Made by a program: the position numbers and the translations under genes. From NCBI RefSeq assembly GCF_002285415.1, contig NZ_NSBU01000007.1, forward strand, positions 250,501-314,500: a stretch of 64,000 bases of DNA, written 5' to 3'. Under the pieces are notes generated by a model. It worked only from the letters and a program-made list of their open reading frames with translations, searched no databases and was not told the DNA's origin. Source of the stretch: Actibacterium pelagium (GTDB lineage Bacteria; Pseudomonadota; Alphaproteobacteria; Rhodobacterales; Rhodobacteraceae). This document shows positions 51,768 to 59,605 of the stretch, in pieces. Each line of letters begins with the position of its first letter. Positions within the stretch are counted from its first letter, which is position 1.

Positions 51768-51871
51768 AAAATGGTGGGCGACCCTGGAATCGAACCAGGC
51801 GTGGGTCGCCCCGAGGGAGTTACAGTCCCCTGCCACACCTTGCGGCCTGTCGCCCACCGTGAGGCGCTGAA
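51768..51871. repeat. Left 104-bp direct repeat bounding the tRNA-Tyr island
   Basis: This 104-base segment is identical to 59653-59756. It contains the whole left tRNA-Tyr gene plus 16 bases upstream of its 5' end and four A after its CCA end. Outside the repeat the two loci diverge at once. It is the far-end attachment site produced by integration into tRNA-Tyr. Confidence 0.95.
51772..51855 (-). tRNA. tRNA-Tyr (GUA), left copy
   Basis: An 84-nt class II tRNA on the minus strand: acceptor GGGCGAC/GTCGCCC, anticodon loop CTGTAAC with GUA, a long variable arm, T arm CCTGG-TTCGATT-CCAGG and encoded CCA (51772-51774). It is identical to the right copy at 59657-59740. Its upstream sequence belongs to the island, so whether it has a promoter is unclear. 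Confidence 0.9.
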
Positions 51872-52063: not shown

Positions 52064-52711
52064 ATGCGAAAGCTGACCAAATTGGCCGCACTAATTGTCT
52101 GCTCATTTGTGCAGTCACAATTAGTAGGAGCCGCCGAGTTTTTTTACTTAGGTGAAAGCAAAACGCTCTTAGTTATGGGCGAAACTGTGCCAGAAGATGT
52201 TGGTGAATTTCGGCACTTCGTTTCGGAAAAGAATGTAGAGACCGTTATTTTGCGTGGCCCCGGAGGGGCATTGCTAGCAGCATTTGCGATAGCCAACGAA
52301 ATTCAGGCTAAGGGTCTTAGAACAGTTGTCCCTGAGAAGGGTGAGTGCGCAAGTGCTTGTTCCCTAATGTTCATTGCTGGAAAAGACAGGAAACTCGAGG
52401 AAGGATCACGGCTCGGTTTTCATCTGCCGTTCTTAGCTTTGGAACCTGAATCTGTGAAGAGCTATTGCCAGACCGTCGCGCCCAAACCAACGGGTAGACG
52501 AAATTTCGAATACCTTCTGAATGAACAATCGGACCCTAAGTGCCTGACGGAAACATATCGGATGGGCTTTTTGCATCTTTCGCTTTTCTCGAAGGTAATC
52601 CGTGAAAGTGATATTTCAAACGAGGTCATCGACATAATGATAGAGACGCCGCCCGAAAGCATGTCTTGGTTTGATGCGGATGAAGCCAAGGGCCTGAATC
52701 TCGTCAACTAG
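52064..52711 (+). CDS. Exported ClpP-like serine protease-fold protein
   Basis: A 215-aa protein with a Sec signal (LAALIVCSFVQSQLVGAA). The mature part has the ClpP/crotonase-fold pattern: ILRGPGGALLAAFAIANEIQ as the oxyanion-helix segment, ECASACSLMFIAG with candidate nucleophile Ser97 between two Cys, and GFHLP with His120. Such periplasmic ClpP-like proteins are widespread in alphaproteobacteria and of unknown substrate. GAGAGG precedes ATG 52064. It lies next to the left repeat and points away from the leftward operon, so it is probably cargo. Confidence 0.75.
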   Translation: MRKLTKLAALIVCSFVQSQLVGAAEFFYLGESKTLLVMGETVPEDVGEFRHFVSEKNVETVILRGPGGALLAAFAIANEIQAKGLRTVVPEKGECASACSLMFIAGKDRKLEEGSRLGFHLPFLALEPESVKSYCQTVAPKPTGRRNFEYLLNEQSDPKCLTETYRMGFLHLSLFSKVIRESDISNEVIDIMIETPPESMSWFDADEAKGLNLVN

Positions 52712-52774: not shown

Positions 52775-52999
52775 TCAGACTTTCACCGGGTAGTCCATAG
52801 CGTCGAACTTCCAAGCCTCGGTCTGTGCTTCCACATCGGGATCTACAGGCACAACCTTGTGCGATCTCACCAAATTCATGGCGGTCGCCAAGTCTGTAGA
52901 CGTTGCAGACCCATCCTTGATCTTCTCGACAAGACGACGAACAAGAAGACCGTTCAGTTCTTCGAGTTCAACCGTAGTGGCATTGAGAGTGTCAGTCAT
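52775..52999 (-). CDS. 74-aa protein resembling T7-type small terminase subunits
   Basis: The last gene of the leftward operon. Its body, LEELNGLLVRRLVEKIKDGS followed by ATSTDLATAMNLVRSHKVVP, has the shape of the short TerS (DNA maturase A) proteins of T7-like phages: an amphipathic helix with LLxxxLxxxIKxGxA, a Thr/Ser-Asp-Leu turn and a second helix leading to a short acidic tail. This is a weak, memory-based resemblance. If right, it would help redirect phage packaging. It starts 2 bases after the stop of the preceding gene. Confidence 0.55.
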   Translation of the reverse strand: MTDTLNATTVELEELNGLLVRRLVEKIKDGSATSTDLATAMNLVRSHKVVPVDPDVEAQTEAWKFDAMDYPVKV

Positions 53000-53001
53000 G
53001 C

Positions 53002-53799
53002 TCAGGCCTCGTAGGGGCTAACGATCTGATCAAATCGACGTTGAAGATCGACCTTATTGAGTTTGCCTAAAGCGGCCCCAGCCCATAGCTGGCGAACCTG
53101 CTTCTGTTCGGCCAAGGTGCCGTTCTCGTAAAGATCGACGAGGAAGGCGACACGATCACTTCCGAGACCGTCGCCAGTTTCAAGAGCCGACAAGACATTC
53201 TGACCACCGATATCGACCAAATCGTTATACTGCTCGATGACGTGTTTCTCATTCATCCCGAGTTTCTCAGCGGCGAACGCCATGTTCTCTTCGCTGATAT
53301 CATCCAGTTCAACTACGTCATTTGTGAAGGACTCTAGGACGCTCTCTGACTGCCCGTCAGTTGCCAAGTCGATCTGGGCGCTAAGTAGCGCGGGGCCTTC
53401 TAAAGGGCCTTCTACAGGCACCTCCGCGGCCTCAGCGTTGGGCTGGAAGGATACCTGCAGTGGGACGAAATCATTCTGTTGGGCGCTGGTCGAACCGCCT
53501 TGGACCATCCCGAGCGACTGGGCGATTTCGTACTGTATTTCCATTCCGTCGATCATGATCAGATCAGTAGGTCGATATCCCCCAGTCACATGCTGTCGGG
53601 AACCATCACGACGAACCACGTTTGGGTTGTTGTTGGCTACACCGTCCTCAATGAACGTGGATGCCGTATTGAAGTGTCCCTTGGCACGAGCCTCAGCGGT
53701 AAGGTCACGGGCGGTTGCTCGAAGTTCATTGGTTTCGCTTAGGTTGGATTTTGGGGCGACGACATTGCCGCTTGCGTCGATAGCTTGTGTACTCTTCAT
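53002..53799 (-). CDS. Island protein of unknown function, 265 aa
   Basis: A soluble, acidic protein. The first 85 residues are polar and basic/acidic mixed (ATARDLTAEARAKGHFNTA), the middle has GYRPTDLIMIDGMEIQYEIA, and the C-terminal 110 residues are helical (ENMAFAAEKLGMNEKHVIEQ, LDKVDLQRRFDQIVSPYEA-like end). I recognise no domain. Operon position directly before the TerS-like gene makes a packaging or virion-related role conceivable. It has a good start at ATG 53799 with AAAGAAAGT upstream, a weak ribosome site. Confidence 0.7.
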   Translation of the reverse strand: MKSTQAIDASGNVVAPKSNLSETNELRATARDLTAEARAKGHFNTASTFIEDGVANNNPNVVRRDGSRQHVTGGYRPTDLIMIDGMEIQYEIAQSLGMVQGGSTSAQQNDFVPLQVSFQPNAEAAEVPVEGPLEGPALLSAQIDLATDGQSESVLESFTNDVVELDDISEENMAFAAEKLGMNEKHVIEQYNDLVDIGGQNVLSALETGDGLGSDRVAFLVDLYENGTLAEQKQVRQLWAGAALGKLNKVDLQRRFDQIVSPYEA

Positions 53800-53817: not shown

Positions 53818-54693
53818 CTAGTTGCCTGAGCCATCGGCTTTAGGAGCCGCTAGTGCACTCAGGGCATCGCTGGCGTTTGCCAGAAGTGTGTGGTTGGAAA
53901 CCCATTTGGTTCCCATTGCATGTTCGACAGCAGACCGTACCTCAGCACCGATAGCGCGGTTGATACCTGCCCTCGAATTGTGGCTGAGACGGACCTTCTT
54001 GGTCACCGTATCGGTGATAGGTCGTGCTGCGTTCTCACTCTCAATTGATGAGATGATGTAAGGACGCTCCCATCCGATGATCTGTTGTTCTGTGGTGGTC
54101 TTCGAGAAACCCGAATTGGCCGAGACGAACTTCCCCGTGTGGGTGTTGACGAAGTAGGTCAGTTCCTTGGCTCGGTTGGGTTTGCCGGGGGGCTGTTGGA
54201 ACCTGAGACCGGCCCAAAGACGCACAGCCATGTATCGGAGCATTGCTGCTCCCAATGGCTTGCCTTGTCTGTGATGGTACCAAGACAACAAGACATACGC
54301 CTTGGACTTGGCCGTGTACCCCATCGCCCCTTCGAGCATGAAGAAGGGAACAGCGAACTTGGGGTGCTTCCTGAGTTGGATTAGGGCGGTTCCCCATGAT
54401 TTCTTGAAGGCGTTCCTTTCAAAGGAAGACAACAAATAGTCATTATCCATCCAATCCCTGATCACGTTTTCCAAGGCCCTAAGTTCAGCCCCAGTAGGAC
54501 TTGCTAGGGTAGGGTGGCCGTGTCGTCGGTATCGGTCCCGATGGTAGAGACAATAAATTGAGAGGTCGTTTCGGTGTCGATCACACCCCGGACAAGAGCA
54601 AGGAAGTTCGCGGTTCCGCTTGGCTCTTTGCTTAATCCGGTTTGTGTCGTCGGTTTTGGACCTCTTAGTTCTCTCAAGGAGACCCTCAGTCAT
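53818..54693 (-). CDS. Island protein with N-terminal Cys/His zinc motif, 291 aa
   Basis: Residues 30-60 hold CSCPGCDRHRNDLSIYCLYH, a Cys4-His type metal site of the kind seen in phage zinc-binding and HNH-associated proteins. The remainder is helical and basic, with WYHHRQGKPLGAAMLRYMAV in the middle and a Gly/Ala/Ser-rich C-terminus. No nuclease or replication signature can be named with confidence. ATG 54693 overlaps the preceding gene by 8 bases and is preferred over the longer frame from 54774. DNA binding is an inference. Confidence 0.7.
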   Translation of the reverse strand: MTEGLLERTKRSKTDDTNRIKQRAKRNRELPCSCPGCDRHRNDLSIYCLYHRDRYRRHGHPTLASPTGAELRALENVIRDWMDNDYLLSSFERNAFKKSWGTALIQLRKHPKFAVPFFMLEGAMGYTAKSKAYVLLSWYHHRQGKPLGAAMLRYMAVRLWAGLRFQQPPGKPNRAKELTYFVNTHTGKFVSANSGFSKTTTEQQIIGWERPYIISSIESENAARPITDTVTKKVRLSHNSRAGINRAIGAEVRSAVEHAMGTKWVSNHTLLANASDALSALAAPKADGSGN

Positions 54694-55000
54694 CCACGGC
54701 CTTAACGAAGATGGAAGCGATGATAGGACGACCGAGTTGGGAGACACCATGCTGATCACTGCAGATAGTGACACCGACTGACGCTAAGGCTCGACGACCT
54801 AGGCAGTTGTCTGGGTAGATGTAATCTTTAGCGGCCCTTCGCCAGAACTGAGAGTCTAGCTTGAGGTCCTCCATGATTTGTTTGGGGTGATAGGGTCCTG
54901 CTTGAGCAAAAGCGAAGTAGTCCATGAGTATTGGGACTATGGATGCGTAATTGTTGATGGTATCCATTCTGTTTCTGGTTTGTCGTTTCTGGTTTGCCAT
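54686..55000 (-). CDS. Small island protein, 104 aa
   Basis: A basic N-terminus (MANQKRQTRNRMDTINNYAS) precedes a mixed helical body with YHPKQIMEDLKLDSQFWRRA and a C-terminal VGVTICSDQHGVSQLGRPII. No family recognised. Its 3' end overlaps the zinc-motif gene by 8 bases, indicating coupling. The ribosome site before ATG 55000 is weak; a start at the Met in RMDTINNYAS is the alternative. An overlapping 84-codon frame (54828-55082) has a better ribosome site but an unlikely composition. Confidence 0.6.
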   Translation of the reverse strand: MANQKRQTRNRMDTINNYASIVPILMDYFAFAQAGPYHPKQIMEDLKLDSQFWRRAAKDYIYPDNCLGRRALASVGVTICSDQHGVSQLGRPIIASIFVKAVDD

Positions 55001-55086: not shown

Positions 55087-55117
55087 TTCTTCTCCTATTA
55101 AGGGTGTCGACGCTTTT
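55087..55117. repeat. Iteron-like motif copy B
   Basis: Contains TTAAGGGTGTCGACGCTTTT, the core shared with copies at 55169-55199 and 55424-55456. This copy lies between two genes and out of frame with the upstream coding sequence, so it is conserved as DNA rather than as protein. Confidence 0.75.
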
Positions 55118-55145
55118 GAGTTGCTTGAAATCGACCCTAGGAACC

Positions 55146-56075
55146 TTAGGCTGCTAGGGGTATCTGATCTTCTCTCTTAATAAGGGTGTCGACGCTTTTT
55201 GCTTTTGGGGTGCTATTTTCATAGCCCCAATCGCTTGGAGGGCGATCCGGCAAATTCATTGTTTGCCCGGCCTCCGTTGCCTTTGCTGTAGCGACTTCGA
55301 CAATCTTATTGATTTCATCGAAAACCGTCTCAGTACACTTCTCAGTGATGATCCCGAGATCAGGCTGAGGTCTTAGTTTGTAAGGATATTCATTCCCCAA
55401 ACCATACCATGGGTGAACTTTGCGGTTCTCCTTAATTAGGGTGTCGACGCCTTGCGTTTGGCTAGTACGGAAGCCATTGGAGCGGTGGCCTCTGGGTTCA
55501 GGATCATCGACACCTCCGTCCGAAAAGACCTCGCCAGTTGGTGGCTCAGGCGCATCCCCACGTACAACAGCCAAGAGCTGGTTCGCCCAAGGTGACCAAA
55601 TGCAATAGCGATTAGCCGCTTGCGATATCGTGCAGTACGACAATGGTTGTCGCCTGTGGAACAGATGCTTGTCTTCTGGGTTCGGTAATAGAAGCTGAGG
55701 TGTAAGAAGGATATCTCGGACGAGTGGGGAGTGACCGTCTCTCGCTAATCGAATGATGGTTTCGATATATCCAAGCCGTTCGAATGGTGGGAGGGAATAG
55801 AGCCGCTCTGCCATACGTAAGGCGAGATCGAATTTCTCAGCTTGTTCCCGAGCCTTGGTCAGACTGTTTGCAGCATTGGCCGGGGTATTGATTCGCTCAC
55901 GTTTTTTCGAGGCGTTCTTTCGGCACTTGGGTGAGCAATAAGTTTTGTTGCTTCGGTATTTGAACAGGGTGCCGCAGTTGGGGCAGACAGATTGCTTTGG
56001 GGCTGTCTTGGGTTTCTCGCGTGAAACCTCATCGACAACAGAGGGACCTGATAGGTCCGTTTTGAAAACGTCCAC
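55146..56075 (-). CDS. Island zinc-ribbon protein, 309 aa
   Basis: An N-terminal zinc ribbon CPNCGTLFKYRSNKTYCSPK at residues 31-50 is followed by a basic patch (KNASKKRERI), a helical domain (DLALRMAERLYSLPPFERLG), and a polar C-terminal half in which the hexapeptide VDTLIK occurs twice (QGVDTLIKENRK and KSVDTLIKRED). The DNA coding these two repeats is the iteron-like motif also found outside the gene. The start is GTG 56075. It resembles DNA-binding regulators or replication proteins in layout, but no family can be named. Confidence 0.65.
   Translation of the reverse strand: MDVFKTDLSGPSVVDEVSREKPKTAPKQSVCPNCGTLFKYRSNKTYCSPKCRKNASKKRERINTPANAANSLTKAREQAEKFDLALRMAERLYSLPPFERLGYIETIIRLARDGHSPLVRDILLTPQLLLPNPEDKHLFHRRQPLSYCTISQAANRYCIWSPWANQLLAVVRGDAPEPPTGEVFSDGGVDDPEPRGHRSNGFRTSQTQGVDTLIKENRKVHPWYGLGNEYPYKLRPQPDLGIITEKCTETVFDEINKIVEVATAKATEAGQTMNLPDRPPSDWGYENSTPKAKSVDTLIKREDQIPLAA
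55169..55199. repeat. Iteron-like motif copy A
   Basis: Contains TAAGGGTGTCGACGCTTTTT with a CTTCTCTCTTAA leader, inside the 3' end of the zinc-ribbon gene where it encodes KSVDTLIKRE on the minus strand. Confidence 0.75.
55424..55456. repeat. Iteron-like motif copy C
   Basis: Contains TTAGGGTGTCGACGCCTTG with a GGTTCTCCTTAA leader, inside the zinc-ribbon gene where it encodes GVDTLIKEN on the minus strand. It is the most divergent of the three copies. Confidence 0.7.
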
Positions 56076-56596: not shown

Positions 56597-56630
56597 CGTA
56601 GTATGTGCCGTATGGCACGTTTATTATTTG
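56597..56630. promoter_or_regulatory. Operator-like site 1 of a 34-bp pair
   Basis: Contains a palindrome GTGCC-GTAT-GGCAC followed by GTTTATTATT. It matches the second site at 56658-56691 in about 28 of 34 positions; the centres are 61 bases apart, close to six helical turns. Confidence 0.55.
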
Positions 56631-56657
56631 ACGCAGCGAGGCAATGCGATCTCAAAC

Positions 56658-56691
56658 CGTACTATGTGCTATATGACACTTTTATTATTCG
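56658..56691. promoter_or_regulatory. Operator-like site 2 of a 34-bp pair
   Basis: Contains the imperfect palindrome GTGCTATATGACAC followed by TTTTATTATT. The outer bases of the palindrome and the AT-rich tail are conserved with site 1. Confidence 0.55.
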
Positions 56692-57357: not shown

Positions 57358-57399
57358 TAGCTTTACCCAAAAGATAGCCGGAAAACGGAGAAGGTGAGC

Positions 57400-58197
57400 A
57401 TGAAGTACGTTTCCCCCTCAGTCAAAGAGACGGCATTCAACTGTCCATATTGCGGCGCACTTGCGAAGCAATTCTGGTACTGTCTTTTGGCCCAGCCCAT
57501 CCGTGAAGATCATCCACTACCGCACATCTATACTCTCAAAGAAAATGAAAACTGGAATGCAGATCAAATTGGCGACCCAGAGGTTAAAAAATCTGTGCAG
57601 GAGTGGATCGAAAAAATGGCGGACGGACTTCCATTCTTCGAGAAACTGAATGAAAGCCGCTCTTCGCGAATTTATTTGAATAACGTCAATATTTCTAAGT
57701 GCTACAACTGTAGCCAATTGTCTTTGTGGCTGCACGACAGGTTGGTGTTCCCGGAAATGGGAGAAGCGCCTCCGGCAAATCCTGATATGCCCAAGTGTGT
57801 CCTTCGGGACTACAACGAGGCGAGTAGAATACTGAACCTGTCTCCGCGTGGCGCAGCAGCATTGATCCGTCTCGCGATTGATAAGCTATGCGGCGAGTTG
57901 GCTAATCCGAAAAAACCTATCAATGAGAACATTAAGACACTTGTTGCCAACGGCTTGGATAGCCGAGTTCAAAAGGCATTGGATGCGGTCAGGGTCATTG
58001 GAAACAACGCAGTACATCCGGGACAAATCAATCTCGATGATGATAGAACGACAGCAGAGAGCCTATTCAGGTTACTCAATGTGATTGTCGAGAAGATGAT
58101 CTCAGAGCCCAAGCACATAGACGAAGTGTACGCGATGCTTCCTGAGGGTGCGCTCAACGCTATTGAGAAAAGGGACAAGAAGCCGGAGGACAGTTAG
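57400..58197 (+). CDS. DUF4145 domain protein with N-terminal zinc site
   Basis: A 265-aa protein. The first 25 residues have CPYCGALAKQFWYC, and CYNCSQLSLWLH follows around residue 98, together a possible zinc ribbon. From about 140 the DUF4145 pattern is clear: GAAALIRLAIDKLCGELA, then VRVIGNNAVHPGQINLDD with the conserved Arg, Gly-Asn and His, which resembles the HEPN RNase motif. DUF4145 proteins are often found in restriction and phage-defence neighbourhoods. ATG 57400 is preferred over GTG 57394, with GGAGAAGG upstream. Confidence 0.8.
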   Translation: MKYVSPSVKETAFNCPYCGALAKQFWYCLLAQPIREDHPLPHIYTLKENENWNADQIGDPEVKKSVQEWIEKMADGLPFFEKLNESRSSRIYLNNVNISKCYNCSQLSLWLHDRLVFPEMGEAPPANPDMPKCVLRDYNEASRILNLSPRGAAALIRLAIDKLCGELANPKKPINENIKTLVANGLDSRVQKALDAVRVIGNNAVHPGQINLDDDRTTAESLFRLLNVIVEKMISEPKHIDEVYAMLPEGALNAIEKRDKKPEDS

Positions 58198-58351: not shown

Positions 58352-59605
58352 TTACTGGTTGTAGGTACTGGGGAAGGAGACGCTCAGGCTCCCCCCGAGT
58401 TCTTGGTAGAGGGCCTCAAAGGTGGACCTTACGATCTCGCTGAGGTCGCCTCGTTTGGCGTAGACAGACATGCCAATGTCGTCGCTGTTGGAATGGCCTA
58501 CGGCTAGGTTTCGGGCTTCCTTGGCGACACCTGCGTTCACCAGAGCCGAAACCGCAGAACGACGGAATGAGTGCATGTCCCATTGGTTGTTGTCTGGGAG
58601 CGTCTTACGTGCGCTCTCAAGAGCCTTACCTAGGTAGTGGACAAGGGTTCGGTCATAGCCGCCACGCTTTAGGCGAGGGAAGAGGATGCCAACATTGTCG
58701 GGGCATGAAGGTTCGGTGATCCTTGCGCGTCTTACAGCGGCTCTCAGCAACTCACAGTCGCTATCTCCGCCAACAACAACCAAACGGTTTCCAGCTTCGG
58801 TCTTGGCTTCGCGTATCGCCAAGCGGATGTGGTCGTCTCGGTCGTCAATGTCATGAAGGTGCAGTCCTGCGATTTCCCCAAGTCTGCATCCGGTTACCCA
58901 AAGCAACCTCACTGTGACGAACATTTCGAACTGGTATTTGAGGCGGGTGTTGCCAGCGATGTATTCGAGAAGTGCTTCCGCTTCATCTCGGGTGACAGGT
59001 CTCAGGTTCTTCTGTCGAGGGTCCACCTTCTTCCGTTGCCCGGCCAATCGGCGCATTAGGGAAGAGAAGGGGTTCTTCATGTCCTGATCGACAAGCCCCC
59101 AATGCTCCAAGACACGCCAATACGAGGCGAGACAGATTTGGTGGGTGGACAAGCTACGGTGTGACAGGGGCTTGCCTGTCCGTTCTGAGGGAGTGGTCTT
59201 TAGGTGGTCGATGTACTGCAACGCCATCGCCCGGTTGATCTTGGTGACCTCAATGTTGCCCGAGAACTCTTCGAACCTCTCAAGGATACGCTGGTACCGA
59301 TGACGGGTCGCATTCTTGATTCCATCGCTCTCAGACAGCCAGCGCTGGGTTGTCTCTCGGACAGTGGTGCCTACCTGTTGGCTCTTGGACGGTGTTGGGC
59401 GTTCTTCGTATTCCTCAAAGAGGCTGGCTTTGATTTCTGAAAGCACCGCAGCGCGGTTCGCCAAGGCTTCCGCTAGGTCGGATGTTCCGAGTGACCGGAT
59501 GATTTCTTTCTTGCCAACAACAGGTTGGATTTCGGTGGGTACGGAATACCGCAACGAGTAAACGCTTCCGCGCTTAAAGATGCCCTTGGGAAGTGTACGG
59601 GTCAT
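58352..59605 (-). CDS. int: Tyrosine recombinase (integrase)
   Basis: A 417-aa phage-type integrase. The catalytic residues are in place: Arg241 in TGCRLGEIAGL, Lys268 in EAKTEAGNR, His345 and Arg348 in MHSFRRSAVSAL, His371 in VGHSNSDD, and Tyr382 in GMSVYAKRG. The N-terminal arm-binding part (KRGSVYSLRYSVPTEIQ) and core-binding SAM-like domain (VRETTQRWLSESDG) are present. It begins 47 bases from the 3' end of the right tRNA-Tyr copy, the standard position for an element that integrates at this tRNA. Confidence 0.95.
   Translation of the reverse strand: MTRTLPKGIFKRGSVYSLRYSVPTEIQPVVGKKEIIRSLGTSDLAEALANRAAVLSEIKASLFEEYEERPTPSKSQQVGTTVRETTQRWLSESDGIKNATRHRYQRILERFEEFSGNIEVTKINRAMALQYIDHLKTTPSERTGKPLSHRSLSTHQICLASYWRVLEHWGLVDQDMKNPFSSLMRRLAGQRKKVDPRQKNLRPVTRDEAEALLEYIAGNTRLKYQFEMFVTVRLLWVTGCRLGEIAGLHLHDIDDRDDHIRLAIREAKTEAGNRLVVVGGDSDCELLRAAVRRARITEPSCPDNVGILFPRLKRGGYDRTLVHYLGKALESARKTLPDNNQWDMHSFRRSAVSALVNAGVAKEARNLAVGHSNSDDIGMSVYAKRGDLSEIVRSTFEALYQELGGSLSVSFPSTYNQ

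Follow-up and report, generated by a model that had tools for sequence, protein, structure and literature searches.

The window analysed here, 64,000 bp of an Actibacterium pelagium contig, contains an island of 7,885 bp from repeat to repeat (about 7.9 kb), which is flanked by a 104-bp direct repeat spanning tRNA-Tyr. A duplicated tRNA-Tyr repeat of this kind is what insertion by a tyrosine integrase would leave behind, and the island encodes such an enzyme. The genes and boundaries that matter for what follows are these:

51768-51871, no strand: 104-bp direct repeat spanning tRNA-Tyr, one island end
52775-52999, minus strand: 74-aa small terminase of the T7 type (DNA maturase A-like), last gene of the leftward operon
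53002-53799, minus strand: 265-aa protein, possible (weak) relative of T7-type scaffold proteins
53818-54774, minus strand: 318-aa protein, present in all six related elements described below (partial in L120)
54686-55000, minus strand: 104-aa protein, encoded at the head of the satellite module, with homologues in L119, L122, L123 and L125
55146-56075, minus strand: 309-aa protein of zinc-binding type, homologous to other proteins up to about residue 184-189, with two motif copies in the roughly 120 aa beyond
58352-59605, minus strand: tyrosine integrase, with homologues in L119, L122 and (cut) L125
59653-59756, no strand: 104-bp direct repeat spanning tRNA-Tyr, other island end

The island looks, from its gene content, like a phage satellite. 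It combines an integrase and attachment repeats in an integrated element with a gene that might redirect the packaging of a helper, the T7-type small terminase. No capsid, tail, portal or large terminase gene was recognized in nine island ORFs searched against Pfam and PHROGs, and Pfam gave no structural gene in the tenth; several of the ten ORFs match nothing. The plus-strand cargo includes a DUF4145 protein (57394-58197, E 2e-16) and a weak Clp-protease match (52064-52711, E 0.04). Between the divergent genes for the 309-aa protein and a 161-aa protein there are two 32-bp direct repeats, 84% alike, at 56597-56628 and 56658-56689; the first carries a perfect 14-bp palindrome, GTGCCGTATGGCAC, and the pair is likely an operator or origin element of the island. 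A query of the host genome, run without a positive-control genome, found no T7-type RNA polymerase.

The small terminase was assigned from profiles. On its own, the 74-aa protein matches the T7-type packaging protein family PF11123 weakly (E 0.002, below the curated cut-off), as do five other members of its family (E 8.6e-5 to 0.0023, all below the cut-off). A profile built from the six members and compared by hhalign with seven roseophage DNA maturase A sequences gave a probability of 94.9% and an E value of 4.5e-8. For the neighboring 265-aa protein, descent from a T7-type scaffold protein is possible, although the comparisons are suggestive only: hhalign against scaffold proteins gave E values of 0.0015 and 0.0019 with probabilities of 16 and 14%, and against the CRP-143 scaffold an E value of 0.23, compared to 0.46 and 0.69 for two unrelated pairings. 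When its structure model (pLDDT 65) was used for a fold search, the top hit was an unrelated protein (E 0.11), followed by a capsid assembly protein (E 0.16, probability 0.87). The model of the 318-aa protein reached a pLDDT of 63.

Upstream of the terminase operon lies a short sequence repeated in one orientation. The 13-mer AGGGTGTCGACGC occurs exactly at 55101-55113, 55183-55195 and 55438-55450, all on the plus strand (three copies in a search of the window), and the copies are spaced 82 and 255 bp apart. Since the adjoining genes are on the minus strand, the motif is better read in their direction, as GCGTCGACACCCT, three bases, TA and then purines; three exact copies of GCGTCGACACCCT lie within 55091-55454, followed by TAATAGGAGA, TATTAAGAGA or AATTAAGGAGA. 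Taken over 27 nt, the identity of the copies to copy 1 is 100, 93 and 70%:

55091-55117, minus strand: promoter-like copy 1, GCGTCGACACCCTTAATAGGAGAA, between the genes for the 309-aa and 104-aa proteins; matrix score 15.59, rank 1
55173-55199, minus strand: promoter-like copy 2, GCGTCGACACCCTTATTAAGAGAGA, inside the 309-aa ORF, with VDTLIK at residue 295; matrix score 13.90, rank 2
55428-55454, minus strand: promoter-like copy 3, GCGTCGACACCCTAATTAAGGAGAA, inside the 309-aa ORF, with VDTLIK at residue 210; matrix score 9.05, rank 6

The initial annotation, made from the letters of the sequence, had reported a core repeated three times in the same orientation, with two copies in the zinc-ribbon gene encoding the peptide VDTLIK and one copy between genes. 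All of this was borne out: the exact 13-mers begin at 55101, 55183 and 55438, the 309-aa ORF has the peptide at residues 210 and 295, and the remaining copy is downstream of the stop codon of that ORF.

Each copy also continues as a T7-type promoter would be expected to, with an AT-rich part and then a purine-rich start: TTAATA and GGAGA, TTATTA and AGAGA, and TAATTA and AGGAGA in copies 1, 2 and 3, respectively. The putative starts are 95 (copy 1), 177 and 432 bp ahead of the ATG of the 104-aa ORF. All three copies face the genes for the 104-aa, 318-aa and 265-aa proteins and the small terminase, on the same strand, two of them from inside the preceding gene, an arrangement expected of promoters repeated upstream of an operon.

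Allowing up to two mismatches, the 13-mer has five matches in the window, compared to a mean of 2.19 in shuffled sequence; this total is unremarkable, because 6 of 100 shuffles reach five. What counts is that three exact 13-mers lie inside 350 bp and that the likeness extends beyond them. No further site in the window comes within fewer than two mismatches of the 13-mer. The whole host genome holds one further exact copy of GCGTCGACACCCT, which lacks the AT-rich continuation, and five copies with one mismatch. Among 394 genomes of the family, the 18-base form GCGTCGACACCCTWAWTA is matched exactly by the window's own three copies only; with one mismatch, there is a single match in each of two other family genomes.

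The look of the motif, together with a T7-type small terminase pointing to a T7-like helper, led us to the Autographiviridae roseophages. We examined eight of the ten described in PMC11092137 (all but CRP-171 and CRP-227), namely CRP-804, CRP-125, CRP-113, CRP-361, CRP-114, CRP-143, CRP-403 and CRP-118, three of them over their first 38,000 bases. CRP-804 has seven clear copies of AWTAATCACCYTT(ATT/TCT)AG, e.g., TAATTAATCACCCTTATTAGAAA; six are outside annotated genes and one is inside, and among them one stands just ahead of the RNA polymerase gene and one just behind it. In the other seven phages, repeats were sought in intergenic gaps that had been listed by hand. Counted in this way, and without a shuffle control, all eight phages have repeats on either side of the RNA polymerase gene, and these fall into three sequence types: MACCNTTWYTAG in CRP-804, CRP-118 and CRP-403; TTAGGTTGCACC(ATAG/TAAG) in CRP-125, CRP-113, CRP-361 and CRP-114; and ATGTGTCAASTCTACGCTATAYGC in CRP-143. 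In CRP-113 a second repeat scores nearly equal (15 versus 14). Judged by position and layout, which are those of T7-type promoters, the roseophage repeats are probably promoters; the word "promoter" does not occur in the main text of PMC11092137 on these phages.

The island motif aligns without gaps with the CRP-804 repeat AATCACCCTTATTAG, sharing CACCCT, three bases, TA and a purine. Copy 2 and CRP-804 have the 11-mer CACCCTTATTA in common, and the remainder aligns gap-free as well. We built a matrix from 14 phage sites (seven from CRP-804, four from CRP-118 and three from CRP-403), with no window sequence included. The three copies score 15.59, 13.90 and 9.05 out of a maximum of 19.98 and take ranks 1, 2 and 6 among the 127,978 positions of the window, so that they have the core in common with the phage repeats that a T7-type promoter should have. 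In 200 dinucleotide shuffles of the window, sites scoring at least 13.90 arose 0.37 times on average, with at least one in 64 of the 200; two such sites within 400 bp on one strand, or three sites scoring at least 9.05, arose in none of the 200. In the 500-bp region upstream of the island module, the best score was reached by none of 500 shuffles. Because the copies resemble each other, the three were counted as one match, for which the chance is roughly 2e-4 (0.37/127,978, times about 24 registers and strands, times three matrix types), a figure to be read in the knowledge that the CRP-804 type was chosen after the likeness had been seen. The other repeat types have no strong site at the island repeats; the CRP-143-type matrix finds only a weak one, at 55409 on the opposite strand, with a score of 10.6 of 32.7.

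The repeats of CRP-804, CRP-118 and CRP-403 are thus like those of the island in having an ACC core, a fixed spacing to TA and a purine, and several copies on one strand, and, for CRP-804, in that a copy (one of the seven) is placed within a gene. They differ in their carrier, which is a phage there and a chromosomal island here, and in the bases upstream of CACCCT, which are GCGTCGA in the island and AATTAAT in CRP-804. The latter difference would be expected if the polymerase of the helper has another specificity. From these comparisons, we consider it likely that a helper phage's single-subunit (T7-type) RNA polymerase uses the three repeats as its promoters.

Relatives of the island were found through its proteins. 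For the 318-aa protein, 4 of the 393 other family genomes gave a match, a weak one in a single case (E 7e-4). Five loci in the GTDB collection match it as well, of which two are elements already found among the family genomes; the hosts of the GTDB loci are Ruegeria profundi, two Ruegeria arenilitoris, Citreimonas salinaria and Wenxinia marina. We compared six related elements, L118, L119, L120, L122, L123 and L125. The gene order of the island, with the 104-aa, 318-aa and 265-aa proteins followed by the small terminase, recurs in L119, L122, L123 and L125; L118 has the 318-aa protein and the terminase, and L120, which is cut by a contig end, has the 318-aa protein, the 265-aa protein and the terminase. 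The place of the 309-aa protein is taken by a protein with a weak helicase match in L119, L122 and L123 and by an HNH protein in L118. The helicase-like protein of the three relatives (L122, 6594-7946) matches PHROG 2467, a phage family of unknown function, with an E value of 2e-42. At the element ends there is a tRNA-Tyr in L118, an 89-bp tRNA-Leu repeat in L119 and a tRNA-Leu beside the integrase in L122; no tRNA gene was found at the ends of L123 and L125. By gene content this looks like a satellite family in which the packaging-side module is steadier and the other side changeable, and whose members would be mobilized by phages.

Several features of the relatives are recorded here in their own right. 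L118 has two AACCCACT repeats on the strand opposite to its module. Upstream of the helicase-like gene in the Ruegeria profundi element (L122, 6058-6210) there are three 48-nt repeats, 60-100% alike and spaced 52-53 bp apart, which are iteron-like and a candidate origin. In the Wenxinia element, the small terminase frame (L119, 10376-10602), read by eye, has an in-frame stop codon near its start, and so it may be broken or misread. The same element carries two ORFs between the integrase and the helicase-like gene (L119, 2708-5957), which, from their translations, we take to be a type I restriction-modification pair.

The motif is absent from all six related elements. The initial annotation had named absence from equivalent places in related elements as evidence against its proposal, and on this point the result went against it. 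The absence is to be expected if each satellite follows its own helper, an explanation that was not predicted beforehand. The 500 bp upstream of the module gave no convincing promoter of the known types in five relatives (L120 ends at the contig end): the best CRP-804-type site was reached by 448, 46, 15, 25 and 123 of 500 shuffles for L119, L122, L123, L125 and L118, respectively, and the best CRP-125-type site by 253, 55, 192, 7 and 144.

A helper was sought in two collections. Three pattern scans of IMG/VR picked out 103, 30 and 55 stretches, each with a single match, and these matches were in unrelated contexts. One of the best-looking of these, L083, was rejected as a coding stretch, and another, L131, as a lone ribosome-binding-site-like match in a 44-kb record that has no second one at up to three mismatches. 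In phage records, searched by 41-base blastn only, there were 161 partial matches, at one place per record and none covering 80%. Neither search found a phage or contig in which the motif is repeated. With the 318-aa protein, the 265-aa protein, the small terminase and the 120-aa extension of the 309-aa protein as queries, no relative was confirmed in IMG/VR. The phage records held no match for the DNA of the region or for the 318-aa and 265-aa proteins, and of the 27 records there that the 74-aa protein matched, the best 20 all had E values of 0.2 or worse. Since no helper was matched and the motif is missing in the relatives, the proposed mechanism is supported by a single island and by its resemblance to phage repeats.

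Other roles for the repeat were weighed. The copies could be real T7-type promoters with a different job, acting as decoys for the helper polymerase or priming replication of the satellite, in the way that transcription primes DNA replication at some T7-type origins. The sequence evidence for this is the same as for operon promoters, and three tandem copies exceed the apparent need of one operon. However, all three point into the terminase operon, and the window has no other 13-mer with fewer than two mismatches, which suits expression better than a decoy; we regard this alternative as unlikely.

It is quite unlikely that the copies would serve as iterons in a replication origin, with the 309-aa protein binding to them, an idea that draws on lambda O, which binds iterons within its own gene. 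Two of the three copies are indeed inside the gene for a zinc-binding-type protein, placed where three relatives have the helicase-like gene, but spacings of 82 and 255 bp are unlike the close, regular spacing of iterons, and the 13 of 393 other family genomes that have homologues of the 309-aa protein all lack an exact 18-base motif. What the motif does match are phage repeats.

That the copies are operators bound by a regulator of the island is very unlikely. GTCGAC is a short palindrome and one copy stands in front of a gene, whereas the conserved unit is asymmetric, running through the AT-rich part to GRGA on one side, and the 32-bp repeat pair at 56597-56689, one member of which has the 14-bp palindrome, is the better candidate. 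It is highly improbable that the satellite's small terminase uses the repeats for packaging or cleavage: the island does encode such an enzyme, of the T7 type, yet a cos or pac site is single, in contrast to these three copies dispersed upstream of an operon, and relatives with the same terminase family are without the motif. Origin, packaging site and operator were the functions that the initial annotation had put forward as examples. Its central claim, that the repeat is conserved as DNA, is supported, but these named functions fit less well, given a spacing that is not iteron-like and a match to the probable promoters of T7-like roseophages.

Conservation at the DNA level was judged from the 309-aa protein itself. 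Its homologues in other family genomes are matched over parts of residues 17-189 only, and they include distant ones with frames of up to 266 aa, which were judged on the matched part. Two of the closest, of 165 and 170 aa, have residues in common with it up to TGEV (183) and end within some ten residues of that point; these two and the window's protein all end in AA. The close comparison was made with these two sequences, and two further homologues were left out of it. Both VDTLIK copies are in the extra part of the 309-aa protein, absent from the two close homologues, and we therefore read the repeat as kept as DNA. That an equally exact copy stands outside the gene, while the in-gene copies are in the extra part, makes conservation at the DNA level the better reading, in agreement with the initial annotation, which had favored DNA over peptide. 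Searches of Pfam, PHROGs, phage records and IMG/VR gave no match to the extra part (about 120 aa), and the 309-aa protein was not found in plasmids or phage records. Because its codon use is coding-like, the extra part may also be a working peptide. That the peptide VDTLIK alone matters, with the DNA likeness following from it, is almost certainly wrong: both in-gene copies do encode it in a region of coding-like codon use, but the 13-mer of the third copy is equally exact outside the gene, the whole region is absent from the two close homologues, and it matches nothing in the four collections.

If the repeats are promoters for a helper polymerase, each would consist of a recognition part, GCGTCGACACCC, an AT-rich melting part (TTAATA, TTATTA or TAATTA) and a purine start. 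A T7-like roseophage that infects the cell would bring an RNA polymerase that recognizes the three tandem promoters, and transcription would run leftward through the genes for the 104-aa, 318-aa and 265-aa proteins and the small terminase, so that the packaging module of the satellite would be made at the helper's own time. The satellite terminase would next direct the packaging of satellite DNA into heads of the helper, and the 265-aa protein, perhaps a changed scaffold, might resize those heads, although the evidence for this last step is weak; scaffold descent of this protein, if true, would suggest head-size redirection. We infer that a helper mobilizes the island and that transcription starts at the repeats.

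Known satellites sense their helpers via repressors, activators or shared regulators. The late genes of satellite P4 respond to its helper P2, through activators that act with the host RNA polymerase; the island would be similar in that satellite late genes follow the transcription machinery of the helper, and different in that a whole helper RNA polymerase would serve. Some PICIs encode their own small terminase, which directs packaging; the packaging role would be alike here, but the terminase family and the likely helper, T7-type in the island, differ. In the open-licence literature we found no description of a satellite that uses a phage-encoded or single-subunit RNA polymerase. The nearest small marine satellite known to us is the PICMI of Vibrio, also a small integrated marine element with an integrase and few genes. 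In the report on PICMIs (PMC10803314), PICMI115 is 6,110 bp, the search model requires an integrase, AlpA, a primase and a fis site, and PICMIs are described as having no capsid-remodelling genes. The island fails the defining features of PICMIs: it is in tRNA-Tyr, has no AlpA or primase among the scanned ORFs, and has a T7-type small terminase.

Taken as a whole, the comparisons make it reasonably probable that the island belongs to an undescribed satellite family of Rhodobacteraceae that depends on T7-like phages, in which at least one member has tandem promoters served only by the helper's polymerase, and that these set which helper it can use. If true, this would be a simple orthogonal switch, silent without the helper and specific for one polymerase type. 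It would make the helper of a satellite predictable from sequence by matching promoters, and it would supply a marker by which to recognize satellites of T7-like phages, a group abundant in the sea.
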